DNA of 36,742 nucleotides. Source: Minisyncoccota bacterium. GTDB taxonomy: Bacteria > Patescibacteriota > Minisyncoccia > UBA6257 > 2-01-FULL-56-20. The translations under genes were made by a program, and so were the position numbers. How positions within the stretch are numbered: the first letter of the stretch is position 1; the number at the start of each line of letters is the position of its first letter. This document shows positions 1,407 through 31,071 of the stretch, in pieces. The notes beneath the pieces were generated by a model. It had not been told where the DNA came from. It was given only the letters and a program-made list of their open reading frames with translations, and did no database searches. The stretch lies in assembly GCA_025449695.1 (NCBI GenBank), contig JANWIW010000008.1, positions 1 through 36,742 of the forward strand, written 5' to 3'.

Positions 1407-3470
1407 TTACTCGGACGAAGTGGCGGTCGAAGTGGTTACCGATTCGAGAAGCGCCTTTTGTTCCGGCCAGAGGGAGATCAAGTGCTCCCTGATCGTCATC
1501 GCCTTGTCGTTGTCCCCGTGGAGCAGATAGAGCGCATGGAGTCCCTCGAGCGGCTGGGGCAGGGTGGGTCCCAGTTCCCGTGCTTTGAGGAACGCGCGCT
1601 CCGAGGCCTGGAAATCGCTCTCGTCTTTGAAGTTGTGCCAAAGAATCACATGGAGCTGGGCCACGATGATCTGATGGCGGACATCGTTCTGCAAGTGGCC
1701 GGCGAGGAGAGGCTCCTCTATATACCGTGCAAGCTCGCGTGCAGCGACCTCCGAATCGATACGCGGGAGTATGCCCATGACGTCGTTCGAGAGGAATTTG
1801 GACACCTCCTCGTCGCCCACCGGCGAGTAGTATTTCAAAGCGTGATCGAAATTATCCTCGAACTCCTGAAGATTGCGTACGCTGTTGATGCGTGCCTCGG
1901 CCCCGATAAAGCGGCTGGCTTTAACGTAGGGCAGGATGGCGCCGGCATAGATGGCCGCGAGGGCGAAGACGAGGCCGCCGAAGCCCGCGATGAATGCCGG
2001 CGCTCCGGGCCGGAATTCCTTGAGGCGCCCCTCGGCCGGAGGCAGGAAAAGGTAAAGCGCGAAGGCAAGGAAGATGAAGAGATTTACGTAAATGGTGAGC
2101 ACATCAAAGAGGACGATGCCCTGCACCAGGTAAGCGGCGGCGAGCCCCGCCACGAAGGCAAGAAACACGGGTCCAGGTGACGGCCCGTCCGCGGAAGGTA
2201 TGTTCCCGCGCGCCGCCCGGAAAAGCAGGAGGCCGAGCGCTGCAAAGATGGACAGGAAAGAGAGCAGTCCCAGGATACCCGTCGCGGCGAGATAATCGAA
2301 AATAATGCTATGCGCGCGGTCGAACCAGGCCGAGAAGCCCTGGCCCGGATGGTAGTAGCGGGTATCGAAGAAACGGTCAAAAACCCAAATGAAGTTCTCG
2401 GGGCCGTAGCCGAGGAGCGGCCGCTCCTGCCAGGCCCGCCAGGCGATGGACCACATGACGGTGCGCGTGCCGAAGGTCCCCTCCTGCCCGCCCTGCACGA
2501 GCCGTTCCAGGGAGATGTCGAAAATGCGGGAACCAGGAATCGCCTTGACCAGAGGGGTCCCGCGGAACGTGACCATGAGGCCGGCCAGGACGATCACCAC
2601 GGCGACCGCAGCGAAGATGACGCGGCGCCGGCGGACATCCTTCGTGAGGAACGCGAAAACCACGGCCCCCACGAAGAGGCCGGAAAGGAGGCCGAGGAAC
2701 GCGCCGCGCGTGCCGGCGGAGTAGAACATGGCGAGCAGGTATACCCCGAGCAGGCCGAAACCCGCGGCTTTTCTCTTGTCGAGCCAGCCTCTCGCCCACA
2801 GGAAGAGCATGCTCATATAAAAGAGGACGAATAATAGGTAGCCGGCAACGTAGGCGGGATTGCCGATGGATCCCTGGAAGCGGTAAGTGGGGCCGAACTC
2901 GGGTCCCACGAACATGCGGAATGTGTTGAACCACGGCCCGCCCTCGCCGGTGAACTGGGTAATCTCCTCGCCGTTCTGCATGACTATGGTCCTCTCCGCG
3001 TCCAGATATTTCAGCCCGGCGCAGAATCCGTACACGCCCATGAGCACCGCGACGATAATGGTGAGCCAGAATAGGCGCTTCCAATCCGCCCGTTCCCGGA
3101 AAAGGGCCGCGAGCATTAGGAAAAACACGTACAGGGTGATCATCTGGAACCCGCCCTCACCGCGCTCGAAGTTGGACCAGAAGGAGAAACTAGGCCGCAT
3201 GCCGGTGAATCCGGCCAGTACGAATATGAAGACGAAAGCGGTCAGGGCCCACACCACCGGGGACCGGAAGAGGCGCTTCAGCTCGGCCAAGTACACCTCC
3301 GCGCCGCTTTCGAACATGAGGCCAAGCAGGAAGAAGCCCGCAGAGAGGAAGGTCAGGGCGCGGAAGAGCACGTACTTGCCGACGATGAACGGGAAAAGCG
3401 TGCCGGTCGAAACCACAAGCACAGTAAAGGGAATTATGAAGAGGCAGAGCTTGGCGAGGCGGAAGAACAT
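1407..3470 (-). CDS. O-antigen ligase/polymerase family membrane protein with C-terminal TPR-like region
   Basis: The 687-residue protein has about a dozen hydrophobic segments across residues 1-480, including the family landmark TRGAFLGLLSGL and the extramembrane loop before the last helices with GYGPENFIWVFDRFF and FDRAHSIIFDYLAATG. This arrangement fits the Wzy_C/WaaL superfamily (PF04932), which joins or polymerises lipid-linked glycans on the outer face of the cytoplasmic membrane. Residues 520-687 are soluble and helical, ending in TPR-like ALKYYSP and LKARELGPTLPQPLEGLHALY segments, as in many ligases of this family from CPR bacteria. It heads the minus-strand glycan operon. Whether it acts as ligase, polymerase or protein glycosyltransferase cannot be told from sequence. 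Confidence 0.82.
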   Translation of the reverse strand: MFFRLAKLCLFIIPFTVLVVSTGTLFPFIVGKYVLFRALTFLSAGFFLLGLMFESGAEVYLAELKRLFRSPVVWALTAFVFIFVLAGFTGMRPSFSFWSNFERGEGGFQMITLYVFFLMLAALFRERADWKRLFWLTIIVAVLMGVYGFCAGLKYLDAERTIVMQNGEEITQFTGEGGPWFNTFRMFVGPEFGPTYRFQGSIGNPAYVAGYLLFVLFYMSMLFLWARGWLDKRKAAGFGLLGVYLLAMFYSAGTRGAFLGLLSGLFVGAVVFAFLTKDVRRRRVIFAAVAVVIVLAGLMVTFRGTPLVKAIPGSRIFDISLERLVQGGQEGTFGTRTVMWSIAWRAWQERPLLGYGPENFIWVFDRFFDTRYYHPGQGFSAWFDRAHSIIFDYLAATGILGLLSFLSIFAALGLLLFRAARGNIPSADGPSPGPVFLAFVAGLAAAYLVQGIVLFDVLTIYVNLFIFLAFALYLFLPPAEGRLKEFRPGAPAFIAGFGGLVFALAAIYAGAILPYVKASRFIGAEARINSVRNLQEFEDNFDHALKYYSPVGDEEVSKFLSNDVMGILPRIDSEVAARELARYIEEPLLAGHLQNDVRHQIIVAQLHVILWHNFKDESDFQASERAFLKARELGPTLPQPLEGLHALYLLHGDNDKAMTIREHLISLWPEQKALLESVTTSTATSSE

Positions 3471-3475
3471 TTACT

Positions 3476-3950
3476 AGTGAGTAGGTTGTAGTGAGTAGTG
3501 AGTAAGGGGCGGTCACTCCAACTTCCGGATCAATACATTGAGCATTTTCATCACTTCCCCGAGCAATGCATCCATCTTAGCAAATTGCACATCTTTACCA
3601 AAGGGCAGCCGTTCCGCAATGGTGGCCTGGGTTTCTAGCTCTGCGCCGGAACCAAATGCCTCGCAAAGATATTTGCGAAAATCTTTCCGAGAATTCCTCC
3701 TGCTTCCCTCGGCGATATTCGAAGCTATCGAAACAACGGCTCTTCTCATTTGCGAGACCAGACCGTAGGTTTCGGAACGAGGAAACCGTTCTGTAACCGC
3801 ATATACTTCTTGCGCTAATTCAATGGATCGTTGCCATACGACAAGATCCCGATATGAGGAAATGCCCACGGTCAAAGAATTTCACACTCTTTAGTTGAGC
3901 ACAAAAGACGAGGTTGTGGACTACTCACTACGCACTACAAACTATTCACT
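3476..3950. repeat. Inverted repeat pair flanking the first S23 gene
   Basis: The left arm at 3476-3504 and the right arm at 3922-3950 are inverted copies of a 29-bp sequence with 26 of 29 positions matching. The arms consist of the quasi-repetitive unit AGTGAGTAG. The gene at 3513-3875 is the only thing between them. The left arm begins 6 bases beyond the start codon of the ligase gene. Confidence 0.85.
3513..3875 (-). CDS. Four helix bundle protein, S23 / 23S rRNA intervening-sequence protein family
   Basis: A 120-residue protein with the family signature: SYRDLVVWQRSIELAQEVY near the N-terminus, then FPRSETYGLVSQMRRA, SIASNIAEGSRR, and FGSGAELETQ. The family (PF05635) was first seen as the ORF inside 23S rRNA intervening sequences and forms a four-helix bundle; its biochemical role is not established. 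Here it is not inside rRNA but lies between the glycan operon and rny, enclosed by a 29-bp imperfect inverted repeat. Start chosen as the first ATG giving the usual short leader before SYRDL; a start a few codons on is possible. No convincing Shine-Dalgarno site. Confidence 0.85.
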   Translation of the reverse strand: MTVGISSYRDLVVWQRSIELAQEVYAVTERFPRSETYGLVSQMRRAVVSIASNIAEGSRRNSRKDFRKYLCEAFGSGAELETQATIAERLPFGKDVQFAKMDALLGEVMKMLNVLIRKLE

Positions 3951-3965
3951 GCGGTTGAATACGCG

Positions 3966-5483
3966 CTAGCGCGCGTATTCAACCGCGCGCATCTCCCGGA
4001 TCACGTTCACCTTGATCTCGCCCGGGTACTTCAGCTCGCTCTGGACGCGGTTCGCGATCTCCCGCGCCATCTCCAGGGCGCGGAAGTCATCCACCTTCTC
4101 CGGGATCACGAAGACCCTGAGCTCGCGGCCGGCAGAGATCGCGTAGGACTGCTTCACGCCGGGGAATTCGTTCGCGATCTTCTCCAGGTCCTGCAAGCGC
4201 TTGATGTAGTTCTCCATTGTGCCGCGCCGGGCGCCCGGACGGGCGGCGGACAGCACGTCCGCAGCGGTCACCACGTACGCCTCTGAAGACGCGTAGGGGT
4301 AGTCGTCGTGATGGGACTTCATCGCATCTATGATCTTCTCGTCGATGCCGTATTTCTTGAGAAGCTTCATGCCGAGATCCACGTGCGTGCCCTCAACCTC
4401 GTGGTCTATGGCCTTGCCGATGTCGTGGACGAGAGCGCCCTTCTTGGCGACAGCCACGTTCAGGTTCAGTTCCGCGGCGATCATGCCGGCCACGTGCGCC
4501 ATCTCGACGGAGTGGGTCAGGACGTTCTGGCCGAAGCTGGTGCGGAAGTGCAGCCTGCCCAAGAGCTGGACTATCTCCTTCGGCAGGTCGTAGATGCCCA
4601 CCTCCGCCACCGCCTGCTCGCCGATATCCATAGTGCGGCGGGCAATCTCCTGCTTGGCCTCCTCGACCGCCTCCTCGATCTTGGCGGGCTGGATGCGGCC
4701 ATCCTTCACGAGCTTCTCGAGGGCGATGCGGGCGATCTCCCGGCGATAGGGATCGAAGGAAGAGATGACTATGGCGCCGGGCGCCTCGTCGATCACGAAC
4801 TCCACGCCGGTGGCGCGCTCCAGGGCGCGGATGTTGCGGCCCTCGCGGCCGATGATCTTGCCCTTGATCTCCTCATCCGGCAGATGGAAGACGGTGGTGG
4901 TCAGCTCGGCGATGTGCGAGCGCGCGAAGCGCTGCAGGGCGATGGTGATGACCTCGCCTGCCTTCCTTTCCATCTCGTCCCGCCGCTCCGTCTCGAAGAA
5001 TTGGACGCTCTTGGCCAGGTCCTCCGCATGGCGGCCCTTCACCTCCTCGAAAAGCGCCTGCTTGGCCTCTTCCGCGGAGAGACCGGTGATGCGGCGCAAC
5101 TCCGCCTCCGCCTTGTCGTGCATGACGTCGAGCTCGCCCTCCTTCTTCTTTACCTCCTCCTCTTTGCGCTTGATGCCTTTCTCTTCCTCCGCGATGTCGC
5201 CAAGGCGCTTGTCCAAAAGCCCCTCGCGCTCGAGGAGACGATGCTCCAGCGCTGCGATCTGATTCTTGCGTTCCTTCTCCTCGTTCTTGCCCTCGAGCAA
5301 AACCTGCGCGGCCTTGTCCTTGGCCTCGACAATGATCTCTTTGGCCTTCGCTTCGGCCTCTTTGGTCTTCCGATCGCTCAGCTCTTCGAGCGAACCGATC
5401 TGTTTAGCCGCCCAAGACCTGCGGGCCAGGTACCCCAACCCTCCGCCCAAAACGAGCGCGGCGAGCGCTAGTATGTACTGCAT
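3966..5483 (-). CDS. rny: Ribonuclease Y
   Basis: The 505-residue protein has the full RNase Y order: one N-terminal transmembrane helix (about residues 2-20), a long charged coiled coil (about 30-190, rich in KAKE, EERE and RRKEEE), a KH domain with IIGREGRNIRALE near 208-220, and an HD domain with HSVEMAHVAG and GALVHDIGKAIDHE (about 320-410) supplying the metal-binding His/Asp residues. It is a membrane-anchored endoribonuclease that starts mRNA decay. The length is typical (about 510-520). Upstream on the minus strand TATAAA stands only five bases before the ATG, so the mRNA may be leaderless. The protein ends in the family-like KVNVIREMRAVEYAR. Confidence 0.97.
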   Translation of the reverse strand: MQYILALAALVLGGGLGYLARRSWAAKQIGSLEELSDRKTKEAEAKAKEIIVEAKDKAAQVLLEGKNEEKERKNQIAALEHRLLEREGLLDKRLGDIAEEEKGIKRKEEEVKKKEGELDVMHDKAEAELRRITGLSAEEAKQALFEEVKGRHAEDLAKSVQFFETERRDEMERKAGEVITIALQRFARSHIAELTTTVFHLPDEEIKGKIIGREGRNIRALERATGVEFVIDEAPGAIVISSFDPYRREIARIALEKLVKDGRIQPAKIEEAVEEAKQEIARRTMDIGEQAVAEVGIYDLPKEIVQLLGRLHFRTSFGQNVLTHSVEMAHVAGMIAAELNLNVAVAKKGALVHDIGKAIDHEVEGTHVDLGMKLLKKYGIDEKIIDAMKSHHDDYPYASSEAYVVTAADVLSAARPGARRGTMENYIKRLQDLEKIANEFPGVKQSYAISAGRELRVFVIPEKVDDFRALEMAREIANRVQSELKYPGEIKVNVIREMRAVEYAR

Positions 5484-6998: not shown

Positions 6999-8528
6999 AT
7001 GAAACGTACCGTGGTGCTCGTCGTCCTGGACGGCTGGGGTATTGGCCGCGACGACGAATCGAACCCCATCCATATGGTCCATCCTCCGACACTGGAGCGG
7101 CTGGCCGCGGAGTATCCCATGACCTCGCTCCAGGCATCGGGCATCGCCGTGGGACTGCCCTGGGGAGAGGTGGGTAATTCCGAGGTGGGCCACCTCACCC
7201 TGGGCGCGGGCAAGGTCCTCTACCAGTACTATCCGAAGATAAGCCTCGCCATCCGGGACCGCACGTTCTTTGAGAACGCCGCGCTTCTCGCGGCCTTCGC
7301 GCACGCGAAGAAGAACAACTCCGCCGTGAACCTGGTGGGACTTTTGAGCAAGGGCAACGTGCATGCATCCCTGGAGCACGTGGAGGCGCTCCTCAAGATG
7401 GCCGGCGAGCAGGGGGTGACCGACGTGAAGCTCCATCTTTTTGCGGACGGGAAAGACACCCCGCCCAAGTCTTTGGAGCGTTTTCTTGAACTCCTGCCGC
7501 GCGACAAGGTTGCGACGCTCGCCGGGCGGTACTACGCCATGGACCGGGAAGGGAACTGGGGCCTGACCCAGGAGACCTATAACCTGCTCACCGAGGACGG
7601 GCCCGCCGCGCCCGGCCTCGCGGCCGTCATCCAGGCCTGTTATGCCAAGGGTTTGAGCGAGGAATTCCTGCCGCCGACGCGGGTGGCCGCCGGAAAACAG
7701 ATCGCCGACGGCGACGCGCTCATCTTTTTCAACTATCGCGAGGATTCCATCCGCCAGCTCGCGGAAGCCTTCATCGCCAAGGAATTCGACAAGTTCCCGC
7801 GAGCATCCCTGCCGAACCTCTTCACCGTGACCATGACCCATTATAAGGAGGGATTTGAGGCGCCGGCGGCGTTTCCGGCGGACGTGGTGAAGAACCCTTT
7901 GGGCAAGGTGATCGCGGACCAGGGGCTCGTCCAGCTGCGCCTCGCGGAGACCTACAAGTACGCGCACGTGACTTACTTTTTCAATGGTTACATCGAGGAG
8001 AAATTCCAGAACGAGTACCGCGTGGTGATCCCCTCCGAGCCCATCCCCCATCCGGACGAGCGGCCGGCAATGATGGCAACGGCAATCACCGACCGCCTGG
8101 TCGCCGCCATCGAAGAGCGCGCGTACAGCTTCATATTGGTGAATTATGCGAACGGCGACACCGTCGCTCATACGGGCAACTACAAGGCCGCCGAGGAAAC
8201 GGTCAAGGTGATCGACCGGGAGCTGAGCCGGGTCGTTGCCGCGGTGGAGGCGACCGGGACCGTCCTCCTTATTACTTCCGATCACGGCAACGTGGAGGAG
8301 CTCCTGAATCCCATGACCGGCGAGCCGGAGACGCAGCATGACCCGAGTCCCGTGCCTTTCCACCTGATCGCTCCGGAACTCCGGGGTCGCCGTTTCGGCA
8401 ACTGGCCGCACGTGCGCGAGGAAACGGGCGGCATCCTTTCCGATGTCGCGCCGACTATCCTTGAACTCATGGGGATCCAGAAGCCGGAAGACATGACCGG
8501 CGAGAGCCTGCTGAAGGAACTTGTATAG
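6999..8528 (+). CDS. gpmI: 2,3-bisphosphoglycerate-independent phosphoglycerate mutase
   Basis: The 509-residue length is typical of iPGM. The N-terminus VVLVVLDGWGIG carries a metal-binding Asp; GEVGNSEVGH contains the catalytic Ser (Ser61); YAMDREGNW, FFNYREDSIRQL, NYANGDTVAHTG and ITSDHGNVEEL carry the remaining metal-binding Asp/His residues. It interconverts 3- and 2-phosphoglycerate in lower glycolysis in the cytoplasm, Mn-dependent. No Shine-Dalgarno site is visible, but TATAAT stands seven bases before the ATG, so the mRNA may be leaderless. The gene sits between repeat-rich spacers and is followed by a semi-palindromic CTAGATT/AATCTGG spacer that begins at its stop codon. Confidence 0.97.
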   Translation: MKRTVVLVVLDGWGIGRDDESNPIHMVHPPTLERLAAEYPMTSLQASGIAVGLPWGEVGNSEVGHLTLGAGKVLYQYYPKISLAIRDRTFFENAALLAAFAHAKKNNSAVNLVGLLSKGNVHASLEHVEALLKMAGEQGVTDVKLHLFADGKDTPPKSLERFLELLPRDKVATLAGRYYAMDREGNWGLTQETYNLLTEDGPAAPGLAAVIQACYAKGLSEEFLPPTRVAAGKQIADGDALIFFNYREDSIRQLAEAFIAKEFDKFPRASLPNLFTVTMTHYKEGFEAPAAFPADVVKNPLGKVIADQGLVQLRLAETYKYAHVTYFFNGYIEEKFQNEYRVVIPSEPIPHPDERPAMMATAITDRLVAAIEERAYSFILVNYANGDTVAHTGNYKAAEETVKVIDRELSRVVAAVEATGTVLLITSDHGNVEELLNPMTGEPETQHDPSPVPFHLIAPELRGRRFGNWPHVREETGGILSDVAPTILELMGIQKPEDMTGESLLKELV

Positions 8529-8586
8529 AATCTGGAAACTGGAATCTGGACAATCCCTAGATTCTAGATTCTAGTTACCAGATTCT
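8527..8586. repeat. Imperfect inverted repeat of the AATCTGG/CTAGATT type
   Basis: The first 23 bases (AGAATCTGGAAACTGGAATC and on) pair with the last 23 bases with about three mismatches. It fills the spacer between gpmI and the PF04020 gene. The same motif family occurs at 11592-11668 and inside ileS at 16318-16349. It could act as a transcript-stabilising or terminating hairpin. Confidence 0.7.
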
Positions 8587-8599
8587 GTATGCTTATTCC

Positions 8600-11740: not shown

Positions 11741-13546
11741 ATGCGCACTCGCACATACATCGCGCCAGGGGCCAAACGCCCCGGCACCGCTCCCAGAAAC
11801 GACGGGGGTAAAAAAAATAAACCCGCCTCCAATCCCCGCCTGGCCCGGACCCTGAAGCCCGGCCCCGTGAAGGGTGCCGCGCTCCGGCCGGACGAACTCA
11901 AGTTCGTCCCATTGGGAGGGATGGAGGAGATCGGCCGCAACTGCTACTACTTCGAGTACAAGGACGAGATCGTGGTGGTGGACGTCGGCATCCAGTTTCC
12001 CGAAGAGGAAACGCCCGGCATCGACTTCATCATTCCGAACGTAAGCTCGCTCGAGCCCAAGAAGAAGAACATCCGTGGCATCATCCTGACCCACGGCCAC
12101 TACGACCACATCGCGGCCATCCACTATGTCATCGAAAAACTCGGCAACCCGGTCATCTACACGACCGCCTTCACGAAGGGCATCGTGGAGAAGCGCCATG
12201 AGGAGTTCCCGAACGCGCCCAAACTGCGCTTCGAGGTGATCACCGACGGCTCCAAGGTCAAGATCTCCGAGCACTTCTCCGCTGAGTTCATGCACGTGGA
12301 ACACACCATCCCCGAGGCGTGCGCCTTCATCCTGGATACCCCCGCCGGCAAGATGGTGTCCTTCGGCGACTTCCGCCTGGACAACGACCCCGAAGGCAAC
12401 CCGCGCGAGCTGGACGCCTTCGAGAGGATCGGCAAGATGGGCATTAACAGCGTGTTCATGGATTCCACGAACGCCGATTTCAGCGGGTTCTCCATGTCCG
12501 AACGCGTCGTGGAGCAAAACCTGGAACAGCTCATCAAGGACGCCCCCGGCCGCATCATCATCGCCACCTTTTCCTCCCTTGTGGACCGGCTGATCGAGAT
12601 CATCAGCATATCCGAGCGCCTGGGCAAGAAGGTCGCCGTGAACGGCCGCTCCATGGTTTCCAACCTGGAGATCGCGAAGAACCTCGGCTTCCTGAAGGCC
12701 CGCACGGAAACGATGATCACTATCGAGGAAGTGCACAAGCACCGCGACGACCGGGTGGTGATCCTCACGACCGGCGCGCAGGGCGAGAAGAACGCGGCCC
12801 TGACCCGCATCGCCCGCGGCGAGCACCGCACGATATCGTTCAAGACCACCGATACCGTGGTGTTCTCGTCGTCCGTAGTGCCCGGCAACGAGCGCAGCGT
12901 GCAGATGCTGCAGGACATGATCTCGAGACAAGTGGAAGAAGTGCACAATTCCAGCCTGCTCGACATCCACTCTTCGGGCCACGCCTACGCCGACGACTTG
13001 AAGATCGTGCTGGAGCTCGTGAAGCCGCAGTACATCGTGCCGATCCACGGCTACTATTACAAACGCCGCGCGTACAAGAAGATCGCCAAAGCGGTCGGCA
13101 TGGACCAGAAGCAGGTCATGATGATGGACAACGGCCAGGTGGCCACGATCGGCAAGGATAGCTTCATCATCACCGGCCACCAGGTGCCCGCATCCTACGT
13201 CATGGTGGACGGCCTCGGGGTAGGCGACGTGGAGGAAGTCGTCCTGCGGGACCGCCTGAACCTGGCCGAGGAAGGCATGGTAGTCATCATCGCTACCGTG
13301 AACGGCCATGGCCAGCTCATCAAGAGCCCGGACATCATCTCCCGCGGGTTCATCTACATCAAAGACAACGGCGGAGTGCTCGAGGATGTGCGCAAGCGCA
13401 TCAAGGGCCTCTTTGACCGCGTGCCCAAGGACAAAGAGATAGACCCCGATTACTTCAAGGTACTGATCCGCGACCAGATCGCGCAGTTCCTGTACAACCG
13501 GACGAAGCGAAGACCGATGATCCTGCCTGTCATCATTAGGGTGTAG
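11741..13546 (+). CDS. rnj: Ribonuclease J
   Basis: The 601-residue protein is a metallo-beta-lactamase/beta-CASP nuclease. The metal motif is HGHYDH (residues 118-123), followed by EHTIPEACAF, FGDFRLD, TTGAQGEKNA of the beta-CASP domain, IHSSGHA and PIHGYYY. The C-terminal third carries KSPDIISRGFIYIKDN, typical of RNase J. The enzyme combines 5'-exonuclease and endonuclease activity in rRNA maturation and mRNA decay. The first 45 residues are basic, proline-rich and probably disordered, an extension found in other RNase J proteins. Glu of the usual HGHxDH motif variant is Tyr here, which does not affect the metal ligands. It is followed by an S23 gene unit, as rny is preceded by one. Confidence 0.96.
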   Translation: MRTRTYIAPGAKRPGTAPRNDGGKKNKPASNPRLARTLKPGPVKGAALRPDELKFVPLGGMEEIGRNCYYFEYKDEIVVVDVGIQFPEEETPGIDFIIPNVSSLEPKKKNIRGIILTHGHYDHIAAIHYVIEKLGNPVIYTTAFTKGIVEKRHEEFPNAPKLRFEVITDGSKVKISEHFSAEFMHVEHTIPEACAFILDTPAGKMVSFGDFRLDNDPEGNPRELDAFERIGKMGINSVFMDSTNADFSGFSMSERVVEQNLEQLIKDAPGRIIIATFSSLVDRLIEIISISERLGKKVAVNGRSMVSNLEIAKNLGFLKARTETMITIEEVHKHRDDRVVILTTGAQGEKNAALTRIARGEHRTISFKTTDTVVFSSSVVPGNERSVQMLQDMISRQVEEVHNSSLLDIHSSGHAYADDLKIVLELVKPQYIVPIHGYYYKRRAYKKIAKAVGMDQKQVMMMDNGQVATIGKDSFIITGHQVPASYVMVDGLGVGDVEEVVLRDRLNLAEEGMVVIIATVNGHGQLIKSPDIISRGFIYIKDNGGVLEDVRKRIKGLFDRVPKDKEIDPDYFKVLIRDQIAQFLYNRTKRRPMILPVIIRV

Positions 13547-13570
13547 GACTAGCATAGGGTATAGGGTATT

Positions 13571-14039
13571 AGGGTGTAGGGTTTCGGGTATTGGGTTTGA
13601 CAATCCACAGCCCTCTGGCTGTGCGAATGGAATGGCAAAGCTTAGGATGCGTAAGTGCTGACTTCCTATCGCGAACTACTCGTCTGGCAAAGAGGCATCG
13701 AGCTTGTTTCTCGGGTGTACGAGTTAACCCAACAGTTCCCGAAGACAGAACTCTATGGCCTAACAAGTCAAATGCGCCGGGCTGCAATATCCATACCGGC
13801 GAACATCGCTGAGGGTTACTCGCGCAGGTATCGTGCGGAGTATTTACAGTTCCTTCGGATCGCTTTCGGCTCCGGGGCCGAGCTTGAGACCCATCTTGCA
13901 ATAGCAGAGAAACTTGGCTTTACTTCCATAGAGACATCCGGGCCGGTTTTGAAATTGTTAACCGATGTCCTAAAATTACTGAACCGCCTCATGCAGTCTC
14001 TGGCCAGCCCTAAACCCAATACCCGAAACCCCACACCCT
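13571..14039. repeat. Inverted repeat pair flanking the second S23 gene
   Basis: The arm at 13571-13598 and the arm at 14012-14039 are inverted copies over 28 bp with a single mismatch; the core is GGGTTTCGGGTATTGGGTTT. The left arm continues outward as TAGGGTATAGGGTATTAGGG. The right arm encodes the C-terminal residues PNTRNPTP and abuts the stop codon of the S23 gene; trpS begins four bases later. Confidence 0.9.
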
Positions 14040-14041
14040 GA
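13655..14041 (+). CDS. Four helix bundle protein, S23 / 23S rRNA intervening-sequence protein family
   Basis: A 128-residue protein with the family signature SYRELLVWQRGIELVSRVYEL, FPKTELYGLTSQMRRA, SIPANIAEGYSRR and FGSGAELETHLAIAEKL; clearly related to the S23 protein at 3513. Function of the family is not established. The best start is GTG at 13655, three codons before SYREL; no ATG is available in frame. The last residues, PKPNTRNPTP, are encoded by the right arm of the flanking inverted repeat and are not part of the conserved family fold. Like the first copy it sits next to a major RNase gene, here rnj. Confidence 0.83.
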   Translation: MLTSYRELLVWQRGIELVSRVYELTQQFPKTELYGLTSQMRRAAISIPANIAEGYSRRYRAEYLQFLRIAFGSGAELETHLAIAEKLGFTSIETSGPVLKLLTDVLKLLNRLMQSLASPKPNTRNPTP

Positions 14042-14044
14042 TTC

Positions 14045-15377: not shown

Positions 15378-15716
15378 TGTCATCCCGAGCAGCGGCGAGG
15401 GACCTCTATGCCATATTATTGCTATATCATGACCAACAAGCTGCGGACCGTGCTGTATGCGGGAGTGACCGGTGATATGCAAACACGGCTAGCTGAGCAT
15501 GTTTCGAAGTTCAATAAGGACAGCTTCACCGCCAATTACAACGTGAACCGCCTGGTGTGGTCTGAAAGCTTTCAGAGGGTAGAAGATGCCATTGCGATGG
15601 AGAAGCGGATCAAAGGGTGGAGTCGGGCAAAGAAGCTGGAGCTTACACAAAGCAGGAACCCACGGTTCCAAGTCCTGAACTAGCTCTGGGGTCCCTCGCC
15701 TTCGCTCGGGATGACA
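15378..15716. repeat. TGTCATCCCGAG inverted-repeat arms enclosing a GIY-YIG gene
   Basis: The left arm is 15378-15407 and the right arm 15685-15716. Both read outward-in as TGTCATCCCGAGC, three variable bases, GGCGAGGGACC; 24 of the first 27 positions match. The left arm ends at the base before the ATG of the GIY-YIG gene and the right arm starts one base after its stop, so the gene exactly fills the element. Direct repeats of target DNA were not found. Confidence 0.85.
15408..15683 (+). CDS. GIY-YIG nuclease superfamily protein
   Basis: A 91-residue single-domain protein. The signature is YYCYIMTN followed by VLYAGVTGDMQTRLAEH (a GIY-x-YIG variant, with Y..Y and YAGVT), then the catalytic-type Arg in TRLAEH and the Glu in AIAMEKRIKGWSRAKKLELI-like helix (EDAIAMEKRIKGW). 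The usual GIY-YIG mini-proteins (UPF0213-like) of this length are thought to be DNA endonucleases, but their substrates are unknown. The gene is bounded on both sides, with no spare sequence, by inverted arms of the TGTCATCCCGAG repeat. No Shine-Dalgarno site: the arm itself occupies the upstream position. Confidence 0.87.
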   Translation: MPYYCYIMTNKLRTVLYAGVTGDMQTRLAEHVSKFNKDSFTANYNVNRLVWSESFQRVEDAIAMEKRIKGWSRAKKLELTQSRNPRFQVLN

Positions 15717-15736: not shown

Positions 15737-18700
15737 CTAAACCTTCACGAGCGCGATCTTCGCGCGGCCCTCGAAATCCCCCGCCTGCACCAAGGCTTCG
15801 GCGGGCGCGGTCGCCTTCTCGATCTTGGAGATATAGGTTTTCTTCGCGTCGAACAAATTGAACGCCTGTTCTATCTCCGCATCGGCGGTCTCATAGCGCA
15901 ACGCCGCCATCTCGCCCACTTTGAAACCCTGCGCCTTGCGCATTCCCTGTACGAAACGCTCCAAGCCGCGGGTCAAGCCTTCGAGCTTCAGTTCGGGGGT
16001 CAGTTCCGTATCGAGCTTGGCGATGGGAACATCGCCCGTCATTTTAAAGATGCCTGCCTTTTTGACATTGAGCTCGTCGCACAGGATACGGGTCAGTTCG
16101 GGGTCCAGCTTCGCATCTTCCGTCCCCATCTCGATGGTGACGCCGGCGAGGGGCTGACGAACTGGCAGGTTCAAAGCCTTGCGCGCCGCCAAACCCAAGC
16201 TGGCTGCCTCGCGCACGGTACGCATCTGCTTCAAAAGCTCCTGTTCTTTCTCCGTGAGAGCCTGCTTCTCCGGCCAGCTTTGCAGATGCACGCTCTCGAC
16301 CTTCTTTGTTCCGCCTTCCAGATTCCAGATTCCAGATTCCAGATTCTGGTATATCGCCTCCGCAAGGTGCGGCATAACCGGAGCGATGACCTTGGAAACG
16401 GTGATTAAAGTTTCGCGGAACGCGGGATAGAACCCGGCATCTTCCCGGCCGCGCGAGCGGCGCAAGTACCAGGTGGAAAGGTCGTCAATGAAATTCTCCA
16501 TGGAGCGCGTCGCATGCACGGTGTCATAGCTGTCCAGGTGATCGGTCACCTCGTTGACCAATTCCTTGGTGCGCGCGGTGATCCAGCGATCCAAAGCAAA
16601 GCCATGCTTTGGATCGCTGTCCCGCGTAGCTTTAGCGAAGTGGGACTCGTCACTTTTCTCTTGCGGCGCACCCGCCTTCGCTAAAGCTTCGGCGGGCAAG
16701 TAAGTAACATAGTACTGGTACACGTTCCAGAGGATCATGACCACCTTGCGATAGACGTTCCCGAGGTCTTTCTCGCTGAAGTTCACATTGTCGCCCTGCA
16801 TCACGACCGAGTTCATGAGATAGAAGCGCAGGCTGTCCACGCCATACTTGCCGATGGTAAGCCACGGGTCCGGAAAGTTGTTCTTGGACTTGGACATCTT
16901 GCTGCCGTCCTCGGCAAGGATGTTGCCCGTCGTGACCACGTTCTCGAAGGGAGCGCGGTCGAAGATCACTTGCGAGATCACATGCATCACATAGAACCAG
17001 GCGCGGGTCTGGGCGATATACTCGGCCACGAATTGTGCTGGGAAGCGGCTCTCAAATAATTCCTTGTTTTGGAAGGGATAGTGATACTCGGCGAAGGGCA
17101 TGGAACCAGCCTCCACCCATGAGTCGAAGATCTCCGGCGTGCGCCGCATCTTGCCGCCGCACTCGCAGGCGAGAATCACCTCGTCTATGTAGGGGCGGTG
17201 GAGATCGGTCAAGCCCGTCACCACCTCGCGCGGCGTCGCGTAGTCCGGCTCTACCAGGATGTCCTCTCCGAGCGCTTCCATGACGAGCCAGAGCGGATCG
17301 CCGTGACTCACGATGACGATGCTCTTGCCGGGGTGTTTGGCGGTCAGCTCGTTCACGATTTCCACCATGCGACTGCGGATGCCGGTCCAGGTCTCGCCCC
17401 CCTCCGGAGCTATCTTCCACCATCCCGCCGCAGGACGAGACTTGTCAAAATCCTTCTCTGATTTCCCGTTCCAGATCCCCACATTGAACTCCCGGAGGCG
17501 GGGGTCGGTCACGACCGGCACGCCGGTTGCCTCGGCCACGATCTCCGCGGTTTCCCTGGTGCGGAGGAGATCGGAGGAGAAAATCAGGTCCACGCCCTTC
17601 GCTTTCAGGGCTTCCGCCGCGGCGCGCGCCCCTTCTTTGCCCTTCTCCGTGAGGTGGTACACGCCCGGCTCCGGGTAAGCGCTGATAATATCCTCCACGT
17701 TCTGTTCTGCCTCGCCGTGCCGCATGAAATGGAACGTCGTGGGCGCGAGGCCGAGATCGGCGACGCTGCCTGCCACTTTCTGCCTGCCGCAATCCCCGCA
17801 TTTCCACACGGGGATGGGATTCCCCCAGTAGCGATTGCGGGAGATGTTCCAGTCCGGCGCGGCCTCCACCGACTTCTCGTAACGGCCGTGCTTCAGATGG
17901 CCGGGAAACCAGTTGATCTGCCCGGCATTAGTGCGCAGGAGATCGGGCTTTATCTTCTGCACATTGATGAACCAGGCCGGGATCGCATTGTAGTAGAGGG
18001 CGGTACCGCAGCGCCAGCAGTGCGGATAAGAGTGGGTATGCATGGTCCGCTTGAGGAGCAGGCCGCGCTGTTCCAGGTCCTCCTTGATAGCCTTCTCGGA
18101 ATGTTTGAAATACTGCCCGCGGATGAGTTCCGGCGCTTCCATGTTGAATTTCCCTTTCTCGTCGAGAAGCGGCACGATCGGCAATCCCTCCCGCAGGCCC
18201 AGCTGGTAATCGTCCTCGCCGTATACGACTGCGGTGTGCACAATGCCGGTGCCCTCCTCAGTGGTCACGAAATCGGCCGTATAGACCTTGAACGCCCTCT
18301 CACTCCTCAGTGCCGGGATATCGAAGAGAGGCTCGTAGGCCAGACCGGCCAGGTCCTTGCCCTTGGACTCCGAAAGTATCTCGTATCCTTCCGGCGCGAC
18401 CTTCGCCACCAGCTCCTTCGCGAGGACGTATGTTTCTCCGCCGATCTTTGCCTTCACGTAATCGATCTCGGCGCCCACCGCGAGGGCGACGTTCCCCGGC
18501 AGCGTCCAGGGCGTGGTGGTCCACGCCAGGAGATACACATTGCTGTCATCCTGAGCCCCATACTTCATACGGGGCGAAGGACCTTCTCCCTTTGAAACAG
18601 AAGGTTCTTCGCCGGCGCTCAGAATGACAGAGGGAGGGGTGCTTATTCTGAATTTTACATACACCGACTCCTCGCTCACGTCCTTGTAGCTGTTGTCCAT

Positions 18701-19357
18701 CGCCACCTCGAAGTTCGAGACTGGCGTCTCGCACCGGGGGCAATAGAGCAAGACCTTGCGGCCCTCGTATACGAGGCCTTTGTCGTATACCTGTTTGAAC
18801 GCCCACCAGACCGACTCCATGAAGGTGCGGTCCATGGTCTTGTAGGAATTCTCGAACTCGGTCCAGCGCCCCATGCGGCGAACCATCTTGGCCCATTCGT
18901 CCACGAACTGGAGCACCATGGAGCGGCAGGTCTCGTTGAACCGCTGGATGCCGATCTCTTCGATCTGCTTTTTGCCGGAGATGCCGAGTTTGCGCTCCAC
19001 GATCTCCTCGATCGGCAATCCGTGGCAATCCCAGCCCCAGCGGCGGCGGACGAACCGCCCGTGCATCGTCTGATAGCGCGGTATGAGATCTTTAATAGTG
19101 GAAGCGAGAATGTGTCCGTAATGCGGAATGCCCGTCGCGAACGGCGGTCCGTCGTAGAACGTGAAGGGCTTGCCATCCTTGGTACGCTCCAGGGATTTTG
19201 CGAACGTGGTGTCCTTTTCCCAGAATTCGATAACCCTCTCCTCAAGCTCGGGGATGGACAGCGTGTCGTCAAAGGGCTTTCCTGCGGCCGGCTTTTCGAA
19301 TCCCTCGAGCATGTCCCTCAAAGTACCAGAAAGCCAAGGAAAATCAAAGGCGCCCAT
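15737..19357 (-). CDS. ileS: Isoleucyl-tRNA synthetase with embedded histidine phosphatase domain
   Basis: About 1206 residues from the ATG at 19357; ATG at 19312 (MLEGFEKP) is an alternative. Longer frames to 19516 overlap the promoter and start of the divergent gene and were rejected. Class I core: HYGH at 79-82, editing domain beginning LLAWTTTPWTLPGN (near 275), NRYWGNPIPVW, KMSKS near 820, and a C-terminal anticodon-binding region. Zinc-type CxxC pairs occur at CPRC, CGDC and CECG. Between GSVADLGL and VVTGLTDLHRPYIDEV, residues about 540-701 form a complete histidine phosphatase domain: RHG in FMRHGEAEQN, Arg in SSDLLRTRETAE, Glu in LREFNVGIWNGK and His in IVSHGDPLW, so all four catalytic residues are kept. 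Three further insertions come from repeats: about 243-272, 888-925 and 1003-1014. The core charges tRNA-Ile; the role of the phosphatase domain is unknown. Confidence 0.93.
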   Translation of the reverse strand: MGAFDFPWLSGTLRDMLEGFEKPAAGKPFDDTLSIPELEERVIEFWEKDTTFAKSLERTKDGKPFTFYDGPPFATGIPHYGHILASTIKDLIPRYQTMHGRFVRRRWGWDCHGLPIEEIVERKLGISGKKQIEEIGIQRFNETCRSMVLQFVDEWAKMVRRMGRWTEFENSYKTMDRTFMESVWWAFKQVYDKGLVYEGRKVLLYCPRCETPVSNFEVAMDNSYKDVSEESVYVKFRISTPPSVILSAGEEPSVSKGEGPSPRMKYGAQDDSNVYLLAWTTTPWTLPGNVALAVGAEIDYVKAKIGGETYVLAKELVAKVAPEGYEILSESKGKDLAGLAYEPLFDIPALRSERAFKVYTADFVTTEEGTGIVHTAVVYGEDDYQLGLREGLPIVPLLDEKGKFNMEAPELIRGQYFKHSEKAIKEDLEQRGLLLKRTMHTHSYPHCWRCGTALYYNAIPAWFINVQKIKPDLLRTNAGQINWFPGHLKHGRYEKSVEAAPDWNISRNRYWGNPIPVWKCGDCGRQKVAGSVADLGLAPTTFHFMRHGEAEQNVEDIISAYPEPGVYHLTEKGKEGARAAAEALKAKGVDLIFSSDLLRTRETAEIVAEATGVPVVTDPRLREFNVGIWNGKSEKDFDKSRPAAGWWKIAPEGGETWTGIRSRMVEIVNELTAKHPGKSIVIVSHGDPLWLVMEALGEDILVEPDYATPREVVTGLTDLHRPYIDEVILACECGGKMRRTPEIFDSWVEAGSMPFAEYHYPFQNKELFESRFPAQFVAEYIAQTRAWFYVMHVISQVIFDRAPFENVVTTGNILAEDGSKMSKSKNNFPDPWLTIGKYGVDSLRFYLMNSVVMQGDNVNFSEKDLGNVYRKVVMILWNVYQYYVTYLPAEALAKAGAPQEKSDESHFAKATRDSDPKHGFALDRWITARTKELVNEVTDHLDSYDTVHATRSMENFIDDLSTWYLRRSRGREDAGFYPAFRETLITVSKVIAPVMPHLAEAIYQNLESGIWNLEGGTKKVESVHLQSWPEKQALTEKEQELLKQMRTVREAASLGLAARKALNLPVRQPLAGVTIEMGTEDAKLDPELTRILCDELNVKKAGIFKMTGDVPIAKLDTELTPELKLEGLTRGLERFVQGMRKAQGFKVGEMAALRYETADAEIEQAFNLFDAKKTYISKIEKATAPAEALVQAGDFEGRAKIALVKV
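16318..16349. repeat. Tandem CCAGATT heptamers inside ileS
   Basis: Four tandem copies of CCAGATT at 16318-16345 followed by CTGG. On the ileS strand they encode NLESGIWNLEGG. The same motif builds the intergenic inverted repeats at 8527-8586 and 11592-11668. Confidence 0.85.
16585..16696. repeat. Palindromic repeat cluster inside ileS (AGCGATCCAAAGC hairpin and neighbours)
   Basis: A perfect 13-bp hairpin, AGCGATCCAAAGC (16585-16597) with GCTTTGGATCGCT (16606-16618), is followed by GTAGCTTTAGCGAAGTGGGA (near 16626) and by CCCGCCTTCGCTAAAGCTTC with GGCGGG (16671-16696). On the ileS strand the cluster encodes SHFAKATRDSDPKHGFALDR and neighbours, a low-conservation stretch before the anticodon-binding part. 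Confidence 0.8.
18543..18630. repeat. TGTCATCC-family palindromic element inserted in frame in ileS
   Basis: The outer arms CTGTCATCCTGAGC (18543-18556) and GCTCAGAATGACAG (18617-18630) match 13 of 14. The inner arms GGCGAAGGACCTTCT and AGAAGGTTCTTCGCC match 14 of 15. On the ileS strand the element adds about 30 residues (SVILSAGEEPSVSKGEG and on) between YVKF and the editing-domain motif, leaving the frame intact. Confidence 0.88.
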
Positions 19358-19415
19358 GACGACCCCGTCGTGTAGGCAGGCTCGTTTTTTCTGTGCCGCG
19401 CCGCAGATGCGGGTT

Positions 19416-19444
19416 TTGACAGAGGCTTCCTTATCCGATATAAG
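19416..19444 (+). promoter_or_regulatory. Promoter of the 19462 gene
   Basis: Consensus TTGACA at 19416-19421, spacer of 17, TATAAG at 19439-19444, followed by GGAGG and the ATG at 19462. It overlaps the upstream extension that a longer ileS start would need. Confidence 0.8.
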
Positions 19445-19461
19445 GACCTTGGAGGCTTCAC

Positions 19462-19824
19462 ATGAACAATCAGGATGTCCGAGTGCTTCAAGCGGAGCAC
19501 TCTCACCATTACGCAATTGTGAGCGAGCCGAGCAACGGCGTTGCCATTCTCCTCATCGCTGATCGACAGAGAAACGCGCTGGTTGCGCTCTTGCTCAAAG
19601 GGCCGCTCCAGGGTGACAACAATCTCACGCTCTCCTTTGTCGACACGAGAAACCGGGGCGAGCTCGAACCGGGATTTCCCCTGACCGGCTGGCGGCAGAG
19701 CAACACGATCTTCCGGAGCGCCCTGGCCCGCTGGCTCATGAACGTGAGCGAGTTCCCGCACGTGTGCCGTAACGAGGACCTGATCAGATCCTTCCACGAA
19801 CACATCGAGGCATCGACGCGCTAA
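19462..19824 (+). CDS. Hypothetical protein divergent from ileS
   Basis: Unrecognised soluble protein of 120 residues. The ATG follows GGAGG (19450-19454) by seven bases and a consensus promoter by 17 bases, so the transcript leader is short. The sequence has a beta-rich N-terminal half (VRVLQAEHSHHYAIVSEP, GVAILLIADRQRNALVALLL, NLTLSFVDTRNRG) and a helical C-terminal half (SALARWLMNVSEF, LIRSFHEHIEAS). No signal peptide or membrane segment. Monocistronic, ended by the hairpin at 19881-19905. Confidence 0.75.
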   Translation: MNNQDVRVLQAEHSHHYAIVSEPSNGVAILLIADRQRNALVALLLKGPLQGDNNLTLSFVDTRNRGELEPGFPLTGWRQSNTIFRSALARWLMNVSEFPHVCRNEDLIRSFHEHIEASTR

Positions 19825-30274: not shown

Positions 30275-30514
30275 CTAGATAAGATGCTTGTTGCGAAAGG
30301 CGAAGCCGGAGCTGGATTTTAAGTATCTTTCGAACATATAGGCCAATTCCCTGTTTTTGAAAGCGCCGTACCAGGCCAAGGCATAAGGTGCCTTGGATCT
30401 TGAGTGTTTTCCTTCGTGTGCATTGTGCTCTCTGAACCTATTGCGTAAATCTCCGGTTGTTCCTATGTAATACCTCTCATCCTTTAGGCTTTTCAAGACG
30501 TATACATAATGCAT
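30275..30514 (-). CDS. GIY-YIG nuclease superfamily protein (second copy)
   Basis: 79 residues in the classical GIY-YIG mini-protein form: HYVYVLKSLKDERYYIGTTG, the catalytic-type Arg in LRNRFREHNAHEGKHSRSKA, and the Glu in NRELAYMFERYLKSSSG. The family resembles UPF0213/YhbQ; presumed DNA nuclease of unknown role. Unlike the copy at 15408 it is not bounded by the TGTCATCCCGAG arms; only a weak AACCTT/AAGGTT pair was seen. It lies downstream of tmRNA on the same strand. No Shine-Dalgarno site is apparent. Confidence 0.88.
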   Translation of the reverse strand: MHYVYVLKSLKDERYYIGTTGDLRNRFREHNAHEGKHSRSKAPYALAWYGAFKNRELAYMFERYLKSSSGFAFRNKHLI

Positions 30515-30721
30515 GCCTCAAGGTTACGAATGATCTCTAAACTACGCTTAAACCCCATGTCGTTCTAACGAACTCTGCGCGGGGTCCACCCCACTTCAGT
30601 AAACCTTCGCGGGGTCCACCACTCCGCTCCTTCGCGAGCTTCTTTTTCAAACTACACTATCCCGCCTTAAGGCGGGATAGTGTAGTGGTGCTGCGCACCG
30701 CGTAGCTCCGAAGGAGCGGAG
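30515..30721. other. Repeat-rich region downstream of tmRNA
   Basis: No gene supported. It contains two direct copies of CGCGGGGTCCACC (about 30577-30589 and 30608-30620), the left arm of the tmRNA-end inverted repeat and a 36-base palindrome. Confidence 0.6.
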
Positions 30722-30728
30722 TGGTGGA
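30615..30728. repeat. Perfect 20-bp inverted repeat that includes the tmRNA 3' end
   Basis: The left arm TCCACCACTCCGCTCCTTCG (30615-30634) is the exact inverse complement of 30709-30728. The right arm contains the encoded CCA and first acceptor bases of tmRNA. A 36-base perfect palindrome lies between the arms. Confidence 0.9.
30651..30686 (-). terminator. 36-base perfect palindrome, likely tmRNA terminator
   Basis: ACTACACTATCCCGCCTT followed directly by its inverse complement, 18-bp stem. On the minus strand it is followed by TTTGAAAAAG and lies 36 bases downstream of the mature tmRNA end. Confidence 0.65.
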
Positions 30729-31071
30729 GATGGGCGGAATCGAACCGCCGTCTAACGATGCAATCGATGAGCCTTCTACGGGCGTAGTTTCCTTGCGGAA
30801 GCGAAATTGGTCCTAATTTAGCGCCTGAGCCAGGACCATCGCTCCGGCGCGAGCCTCCTTATATAAGACCGCTACCCGCCTAAGAGGCGAAAGCGGGGCG
30901 ATCCTCAGACATTACGCGTAAGCGTAAGCGGCCGGAGCTGCAACTTTGGAGTTGGCAGTTAAGAGTTGTGCGGGTTTAACCCTCCTTCGCGTAAAGCTAC
31001 GGAGGGCGCTGCGAGTCCGCGCTCGGCCCGCGAGCTCATGAAGCAAGCGTTATCGATGCCAGTGCATCCCC
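30722..31071 (-). ncRNA. ssrA: Transfer-messenger RNA (tmRNA)
   Basis: On the minus strand the RNA starts GGGGATGCACTGGCATCGAT at 31071 and ends GGTTCGATTCCGCCCATCTC plus CACCA at 30722. The acceptor stem GGGGATG pairs with CATCTCC (one G-U), the T-arm is GGCGG/CCGCC around TTCGATT, and CCA is encoded. The tag reading frame is best read at 30956-30912: GCC AAC TCC ... TAC GCG TAA, giving ANSKVAAPAAYAYA, 14 residues, with the usual A-N start and an AYAYA end in place of the common ALAA. Length about 350 bases, standard order and not permuted. It acts with SmpB (gene at 21780) in ribosome rescue. A near-consensus promoter lies at 31096-31124. Confidence 0.95.

Follow-up and report, generated by a model that had tools for sequence, protein, structure and literature searches.

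An S23 gene enclosed by inverted heptamer arms

Within the 36,742-nt stretch of Minisyncoccota DNA analyzed here (the window), an S23 gene lies between rny and a gene for an O-antigen-ligase-like membrane protein, and all three genes have the same direction. The features of this locus are:

1407-3470, minus strand: O-antigen-ligase-like membrane protein gene, the left neighbor
3476-3504, minus strand: downstream arm, the complement of the upstream arm
3513-3875, minus strand: S23 (23S_rRNA_IVP) four-helix-bundle gene encoding 120 aa; listed with a TTG start, GTG being possible
3922-3950, minus strand: upstream arm (relative to the S23 gene), a degenerate heptamer array with coding strand AGTGAATAGTTTGTAGTGCGTAGTGAGTA, complementary to 3476-3504
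3951-3986, no strand: perfect 16-bp palindrome with a 4-nt spacer (halves 3951-3966 and 3971-3986), directly outside the rny-side arm
3966-5483, minus strand: rny (RNase Y), the conserved right neighbor, by which occupied and empty junctions are defined

The 29-nt arms are complementary at 26 of 29 positions (90%) with a spacing of 417 nt, and the sole protein-like ORF between them, 3513-3875, belongs to the S23 family (PF05635 23S_rRNA_IVP, E 1.4e-34; TIGR02436, E 1e-33). A first-pass annotation, made from the sequence alone, had reported these arms, their 26/29 match, the S23 gene as their only content and a location outside rRNA. All of this held; Rfam identified no rRNA in the window and found tmRNA and tRNA instead. 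What that annotation did not contain is that the arms are degenerate heptamer arrays (AGTGAGT AGGTTGT AGTGAGT ...). The score of this arm pair, 20, was reached by 2 of 1687 equally spaced control windows taken elsewhere in 75 named S23 loci. The predicted RNA fold of positions 3470-3990 was 5.0 s.d. better than 100 shuffles (z -5.0), with the arms paired in a long stem; the folded stretch includes the additional palindrome at 3951-3986, which adds to the fold score. One half of that palindrome consists of the last nucleotides of rny, stop codon included, and the other is an inverted copy lying against the arm. Such a copy would fit snap-back copying of target DNA at insertion, a possibility inferred from a single observation, and a plain terminator is a possible alternative.

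A second element is present in the same window:

13568-13598, plus strand: upstream arm of the second element (AGGGTGT class), with more heptamers from 13535
13655-14041, plus strand: second S23 gene (128 aa), which runs into the downstream arm with its C-terminal codons and stop
14012-14042, plus strand: downstream arm of the second element, 29/31 complementary to 13568-13598

Its gene likewise matches PF05635 (E 5.8e-36) and its RNA fold gave a z of -3.9, and its arms are wholly unrelated in sequence to those of the element at rny. The ribonuclease J gene (11741-13546) runs into the S23 arm, where heptamers supply its final codons and its TAG stop (ATT AGG GTG TAG). Across the genome (983 kb) there are five S23 matches, one of them interrupted by a stop, and a gene for RNase III is present.

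Judged by the criteria of a 23S rRNA intervening sequence (IVS), the unit carries an S23 (PF05635) protein, with the E-values given above for the two genes, and possesses stem-forming complementary ends around the S23 ORF, the latter on sequence and predicted fold only. The criterion of location inside an rRNA gene was not met, the neighbors being rny and the ligase-like gene.

Occupied and empty junctions in related genomes

We found rny in 33 of the 37 genomes of the family, and 30 loci were read. S23 lay downstream of rny in one of these, that of the window's own genome, and the other 29 were free of S23. A homolog of the ligase-like gene followed rny in 28 of the 30 loci (the genome's own and those of 27 relatives, all 27 without S23), and gene order has therefore been retained in 27 relatives. 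The gap between rny and the ligase gene is 495 nt here vs. 1-227 nt in 24 measurable relatives; gap estimates for three truncated loci (L151, L153, and L165) were wrong, and these loci were used for gene order only. Short-repeat hairpins lacking S23 were seen by eye at the rny junction in some relatives (e.g., L138, L140, L143, and L151).

At a second site, S23 precedes trpS in four of 30 loci read, and other rnj-trpS junctions are without it. A single origin of these trpS-junction copies was rejected; a tree of 47 S23 rows needs at least two for the four. One long-branch pair makes some deep joins in that tree unsure, and L281, which repeats L010, was omitted. The tree showed no significant grouping of S23 copies by genome (122 and 118 of 500 shuffles were as low for G009 and G020, respectively), in a set that includes two repeated rows.

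The criterion for a mobile element, filled and empty orthologous sites, is met. The first-pass annotation had inferred an IVS-type unit in intergenic DNA, perhaps mobile, had proposed looking for an empty ligase-rny junction in relatives, and had named two results that would refute it: S23 and arms at the same place in all relatives with no empty sites, or arms not conserved with the gene. Neither occurred. The empty junction, with the ligase homolog after rny and no S23, was found in the 27 relatives, and paired heptamer arms accompany S23 across phyla (below). Mobility is supported by the empty and filled sites, the mover of the unit remaining unidentified; the IVS-type reading is also supported, with RNA excision inferred only, as there are no RNA data.

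Filled and empty sites on plasmids

A tblastn search located S23 on 31 of 72,556 plasmid records. On two plasmids of Calothrix brevissima, S23 lies between an integrase gene and the next gene. This region matched 41 records; among 30 of them, two were filled and 20 had both flanks with a span ~507 nt shorter; of eight records fetched, seven were without the insert and one had a different gene there. The empty counterparts come from Tolypothrix, Aulosira, Nostoc, Nodularia, and Anabaena. At another site, S23 is present in Trichormus variabilis (two identical records) and Scytonema and missing from Nostoc linckia, Aulosira, Microchaete, two Tolypothrix, and Nostoc carneum. Filled and empty versions of this site are 97.4-97.7% identical and measure 2501 vs. 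2073 nt, a difference of 428 nt, and a seventh plasmid holds a decayed remnant; the comparison covers 15 of 48 matching records. Gain of the insert is the simpler interpretation at the Calothrix and Trichormus sites, where more records are empty than filled.

Further filled/empty pairs were Nostoc C052 vs. C057, Nostoc ATCC 53789 vs. C052, Picosynechococcus PCC 7003 vs. 7002 (between cmr2 and cmr3; junction unresolved by alignment), and Nostoc edaphicum vs. Calothrix (between nrdB and nrdA, with S23 opposite in direction to these neighbors). Several plasmid insertions occurred at or beside a stop codon. Imperfect direct repeats flank two sites (GTAATAAA/GTAATTAA and GGTTCTAA/GATTCTAG); other than these, no clear target-site duplication was seen at the six plasmid sites, and none was constant.

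As a separate observation, S23 occurs inside CRISPR gene runs of cyanobacterial plasmids (L295 and L300; between cmr2 and cmr3 and between cas6 and cas4), and so may appear CRISPR-associated in neighborhood surveys merely by insertion.

Element limits, selection, and direction

Related elements at different plasmid sites share 78-81% DNA identity over ~420 bp, with similarity stopping ~40 nt outside the ORF upstream and sooner downstream. The dN/dS of S23 was 0.10-0.14 in five cross-site comparisons; the sixth pair consisted of same-site copies whose divergence is too small to judge. S23 is thus under purifying selection between related elements at different sites, and the protein must therefore be needed by something that outlasts any single insertion.

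In the 43 loci where the neighbors agree in direction, S23 is co-directional with both in 39 (p 3e-8 vs. one half), the neighbors being estimated from ORFs of at least 100 aa. Other adjacent gene pairs in those loci are also mostly co-directional (157/215). We infer that the bias fits a reliance on read-through transcription, as in rRNA.

Paired heptamer arrays flank S23 in distant phyla

S23 is patchy and often multicopy among this genome and 60 relatives, occurring in 41 of the 61. To score flank pairing, the left flank was locally aligned with the right flank in reverse complement. This was done for 34 loci, namely the five of this genome and the top one from each relative, a sample biased to well-preserved genes and with a few loci truncated at contig ends. 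Scores were at least 12 in 28 of the 34; mismatched pairs averaged 8-10.

A collection of 84,980 genomes was then scanned with an alignment of 14 S23 proteins, and the best 80 of at least 587 candidates were taken as named loci. They come from Patescibacteria, Cyanobacteria, Planctomycetes, Bacteroidetes, Proteobacteria, Clostridia, Acidobacteria, Methanophagales archaea, and others. Five of the 80 were dropped from the arm-pairing count for contig edges. Of the remaining 75, 41 had flanks pairing at a score of at least 14 and 51 at a score of at least 12; among 1687 control windows, drawn from these loci at matching spacing, the corresponding numbers were 10 and 45. As 34 of the 75 score below 14 and 24 below 12, the arms are weak or decayed in many.

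The seven-nucleotide period is equally evident. At lag 7, self-identity over 100 nt averaged 0.407 on the upstream side (z 19.9) and 0.391 on the downstream side (z 17.8), compared with 0.262 in the controls, six of the 80 loci having been dropped for contig edges. Lag 8 was weaker (z 6.8 and 6.0), and other lags up to 13 gave z between -5 and 4. Seven was the top-scoring lag for 47 upstream and 48 downstream flanks, out of 74 in each case, compared with 133 of the 1742 control windows. Clear arrays comprised 65 arms in 42 loci (20 of 909 control windows), and they share a loose form, ~NRNTAGK (G at 0.87), on the coding strand upstream. The common period, the paired arms and the clear arrays in distant phyla together mean that each element has its own heptamer, that its arms match each other, and that one period holds throughout. 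The arms of the element at rny are one case of this general architecture, in which inverted, degenerate, locus-specific 7-nt tandem arrays flank S23. Chance or low complexity as a full explanation is ruled out by the same-locus control windows, the other lags, and the S23-free genomes described below.

No rRNA was seen in the 20 of the 80 named loci that were checked, and conserved rRNA words, applied as a crude check, had no match in the S23 loci examined. Phages gave no tblastn match with the second S23 protein, and IMG/VR contained one S23 locus. It is possible, if not proven, that a TAG-bearing heptamer, which puts a stop in every frame within 21 nt, shields upstream genes; such a stop is seen at rnj, but many arms carry CAG or CGG in place of TAG.

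Solo heptamer hairpins without S23

Heptamer arrays also occur apart from S23, including two in the window:

8523-8592 (end approximate), no strand: solo heptamer hairpin without S23, between gene 6999-8528 and the next gene
16299-16361, no strand: heptamer array (CCAGATT)n, inside the IleRS-like reading frame 15737-19516

The array at 8523-8592 scored 21 against the S23 arms of this genome and at most 8 against the arms of nine other genomes. The (CCAGATT)n array shares its class with one of this genome's S23 arms and leaves the IleRS-like frame unbroken.

A genome search with the second element's upstream arm, at E up to 1, gave 11 matches: the arm itself, its partner arm, and nine others. 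Loci were returned for eight of the nine (L118-L125); by eye they are compact intergenic hairpins without S23, two of these loci splitting a single hairpin between them. Stretches sampled from 11 S23-bearing genomes (816,597 bp) contained 27 inverted heptamer arrays away from S23, spread over seven of the genomes, and those from 10 S23-free genomes (674,000 bp) contained two, one each in two genomes. The density is ~11 times higher in the S23-bearing stretches, and lag 7 stood far above other lags. These counts are uncorrected for genome relatedness; the S23-free set excludes L185, L229, and L232, and L272 was used without its first 8 kb, which overlap L230. No solo hairpins were found in the sampled stretches of the S23 genomes G020, G023, G054, and G003.

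Eight of nine solos of the window's genome that were found without prior similarity match its resident S23 arms best, in addition to three found by similarity. The solo near 15,897 in L199 has TACTCACTACGCACTAC in common with an arm of the element at rny. Among 11 solos from three other genomes, one best matches its own genome, three tie, and seven better match another genome; with only one clear own-genome match, the class link is not general in these data. In this matching the arms of L002 were mis-cut (score 8), and L280 and L285 had no S23 by phmmer and hence no arms. Another intergenic hairpin family, made of TTTCTAATTTC-like units (L206, L209, and L210 in G038; L203 and L204 in G026), did not match the S23 arms examined and makes up much of the solo list of G038.

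Other palindromic units in the window

A GIY-YIG gene (15408-15683; PF01541) also lies inside inverted arms, of TGTCATCCCGAGC type (window positions 15378-15716). The TGTCATCCCGAGC 13-mer occurs 35 times in the genome, and its reversed control is absent. There are nine inverted pairs with a spacing of 163-168 bp and without a GIY-YIG gene; for the pair around the GIY-YIG gene the spacing is 326 bp. This unit resembles a second gene-bearing element with short gene-less relatives. A perfect 18+18 nt palindrome at 30651-30686 has a second GIY-YIG gene (30275-30514) ~140 nt away and the tmRNA gene (30722-31071) nearby.

A proposed mobile element and its rivals

The most probable explanation is that the unit, ~420-500 bp long, is a mobile element related to the 23S rRNA IVS but free-living, with one S23 gene between inverted degenerate heptamer arrays; its excision and its mover are not established. 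The architecture, its recurrence across phyla, the empty and filled sites, purifying selection, co-directional insertion, and the concentration of solo hairpins mostly in S23 genomes are direct observations. The mechanism is inferred. The element would be transcribed together with its neighbor genes, and the arms would pair as a dsRNA stem with the S23 message in the loop. RNase III may then cut the stem as in rRNA, freeing the S23 message from the host transcript (there are no RNA data); under this proposal, insertion between cotranscribed genes would be tolerated because the cut separates the two. The S23 protein is proposed to recognize the stem that the heptamers form, both in its own element and in solo hairpins, and to promote the spread of both. 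The catalytic step would be supplied by host enzymes, and the step that copies the element to a new site has not been identified. Several points stand against this explanation: the unit contains no transposase, recombinase, or reverse transcriptase; target-site duplication is not constant; the arms are weak or decayed in many loci; solos in three other genomes seldom match their resident arms best, four S23 genomes yielded none, and two S23-free genomes yielded one each; other adjacent genes are mostly co-directional as well; and the best-studied S23 protein, that of Coxiella, is thought not to be made in vivo (PMC4990558).

The strongest rival, which we nonetheless regard as unlikely, makes S23 a passive passenger: heptamer hairpins would owe their origin and spread to replication slippage, template switching or another system, with S23 tending to occupy their loops but having no action on them. 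In its favor, solo hairpins without S23 exist, including one each in two S23-free genomes; S23-less hairpins were seen by eye at the rny junction of several relatives; and the variable heptamer number in Coxiella is consistent with slippage (PMC4990558). Against it are the purifying selection on S23 between elements at different sites, the ~11-fold denser solos in S23-bearing stretches, and the arms of the same period around S23 in many phyla.

A second rival, mobilization in trans, has a resident transposase or recombinase using the heptamer arrays as ends, with S23 in another role, e.g., RNA stability. The unit is small, with mirrored ends like those of a MITE, its neighbors vary, and it has no enzyme of its own. 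However, the end sequences vary between elements, unlike transposase-recognized ends, and target duplication is not constant, leaving this reading with very little probability. There is even less to recommend a domesticated host gene with a regulatory hairpin, in which S23 would regulate neighboring operons and not be mobile in this genome. Insertions within the gene runs cmr2/cmr3, cas6/cas4, and nrdB/nrdA (the last opposite in direction to its neighbors) favor it, but the neighbors are unrelated between cases and close relatives lack S23 in the same gene run. Coincidence or an assembly artefact at rny, for which only the low complexity of the arms speaks, is practically excluded by the second element in the window and by the plasmid and genome cases.

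On the preferred reading, that of a mobile element, S23, a widespread family without known function and known mainly from rRNA, becomes the conserved core of a free-living unit marked by mirrored heptamers, with a testable function, heptamer-stem binding. The unit also offers a model for how 400 bp of DNA could spread among operons with little damage, and a possible source for heptanucleotide repeats so far reported as regulatory or slippage products. A bolder reading, somewhat less likely than not, treats S23 elements as a class of mobile DNA found in bacteria and some archaea. Their ends would be self-complementary heptamer arrays, with no fixed sequence, and the copying or maintenance of these arrays would go together with the S23 ring protein. 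Together with gene-less hairpins, these elements would be the source of long-unexplained heptanucleotide repeats (TAACTGA, STRR, and P6b of the tRNA-Leu intron), and the rRNA IVS would be the minority that landed in rRNA.

Comparison with known systems

We found no link between S23 and intergenic heptamer hairpins in the open-licence literature searched (subscription papers and other preprints were not covered), and the relevant passages of PMC5041132, PMC10910872, PMC4853749, and PMC3542288 contained nothing on it. Bacterial heptamer repeats, for which earlier descriptions give no source, resemble the S23 arms in their 7-nt period. For the TAACTGA repeats, a mobile repeat-binding protein has been raised only as a possibility (MacGregor, 2015; PMC4679880); the P6b stem of the Nostoc tRNA-Leu intron is built of heptamers, class I TDNGATT and class II NNTGAGT (PMC4476775), which thus form a stem. 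The passages of these two papers bearing on the repeats do not tie them to S23. TCAGTTA, which is TAACTGA in reverse complement, occurs in an arm of the S23 locus L103. The STRR of cyanobacteria are also heptamer repeats.

Sequence searches identified two solved structures homologous to S23 (2gsc and 2rld), and the protein forms a pentamer ring (PMC4990558). S23 is not known to have catalytic activity. Its homolog Avd (PF22296/NF033474) is required for DGR retrohoming (PMC10053308) and shares the four-helix bundle, with weak, sub-threshold matches from the S23 proteins found here. DGR membership was rejected for lack of any RVT_1 (reverse transcriptase) match in this genome (0 matches; completeness 92.7%).

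The unit does not meet the criteria of an IS element or classical transposon. There is no transposase, S23 being alone between the arms, and fixed terminal repeats with target-site duplication are missing, as the arms vary and duplication is not constant. REP/RAYT elements and MITEs are small, dispersed intergenic hairpins with a rarer gene-bearing form flanked by inverted copies. The S23 system is similar in having dispersed hairpins and a rarer gene-bearing form. RAYTs, however, encode a nuclease, whereas the S23 arms are tandem heptamers that vary between elements.

The closest likeness is to the 23S rRNA IVS of Coxiella, Leptospira, and Brucella, in which a single S23 ORF also lies between complementary ends. 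Insertions in the rRNA of CPR bacteria have likewise been reported to contain S23 (PMC11270868). The Coxiella IVS is 428 nt long with a 28-bp stem, is cut by RNase III, and likewise has heptamers (GACAGAT), just before its ORF (PMC4990558). In contrast to the IVS, the units described here lie between protein genes, their arm sequence varies by element, and many of their sites are empty in other genomes and plasmids.
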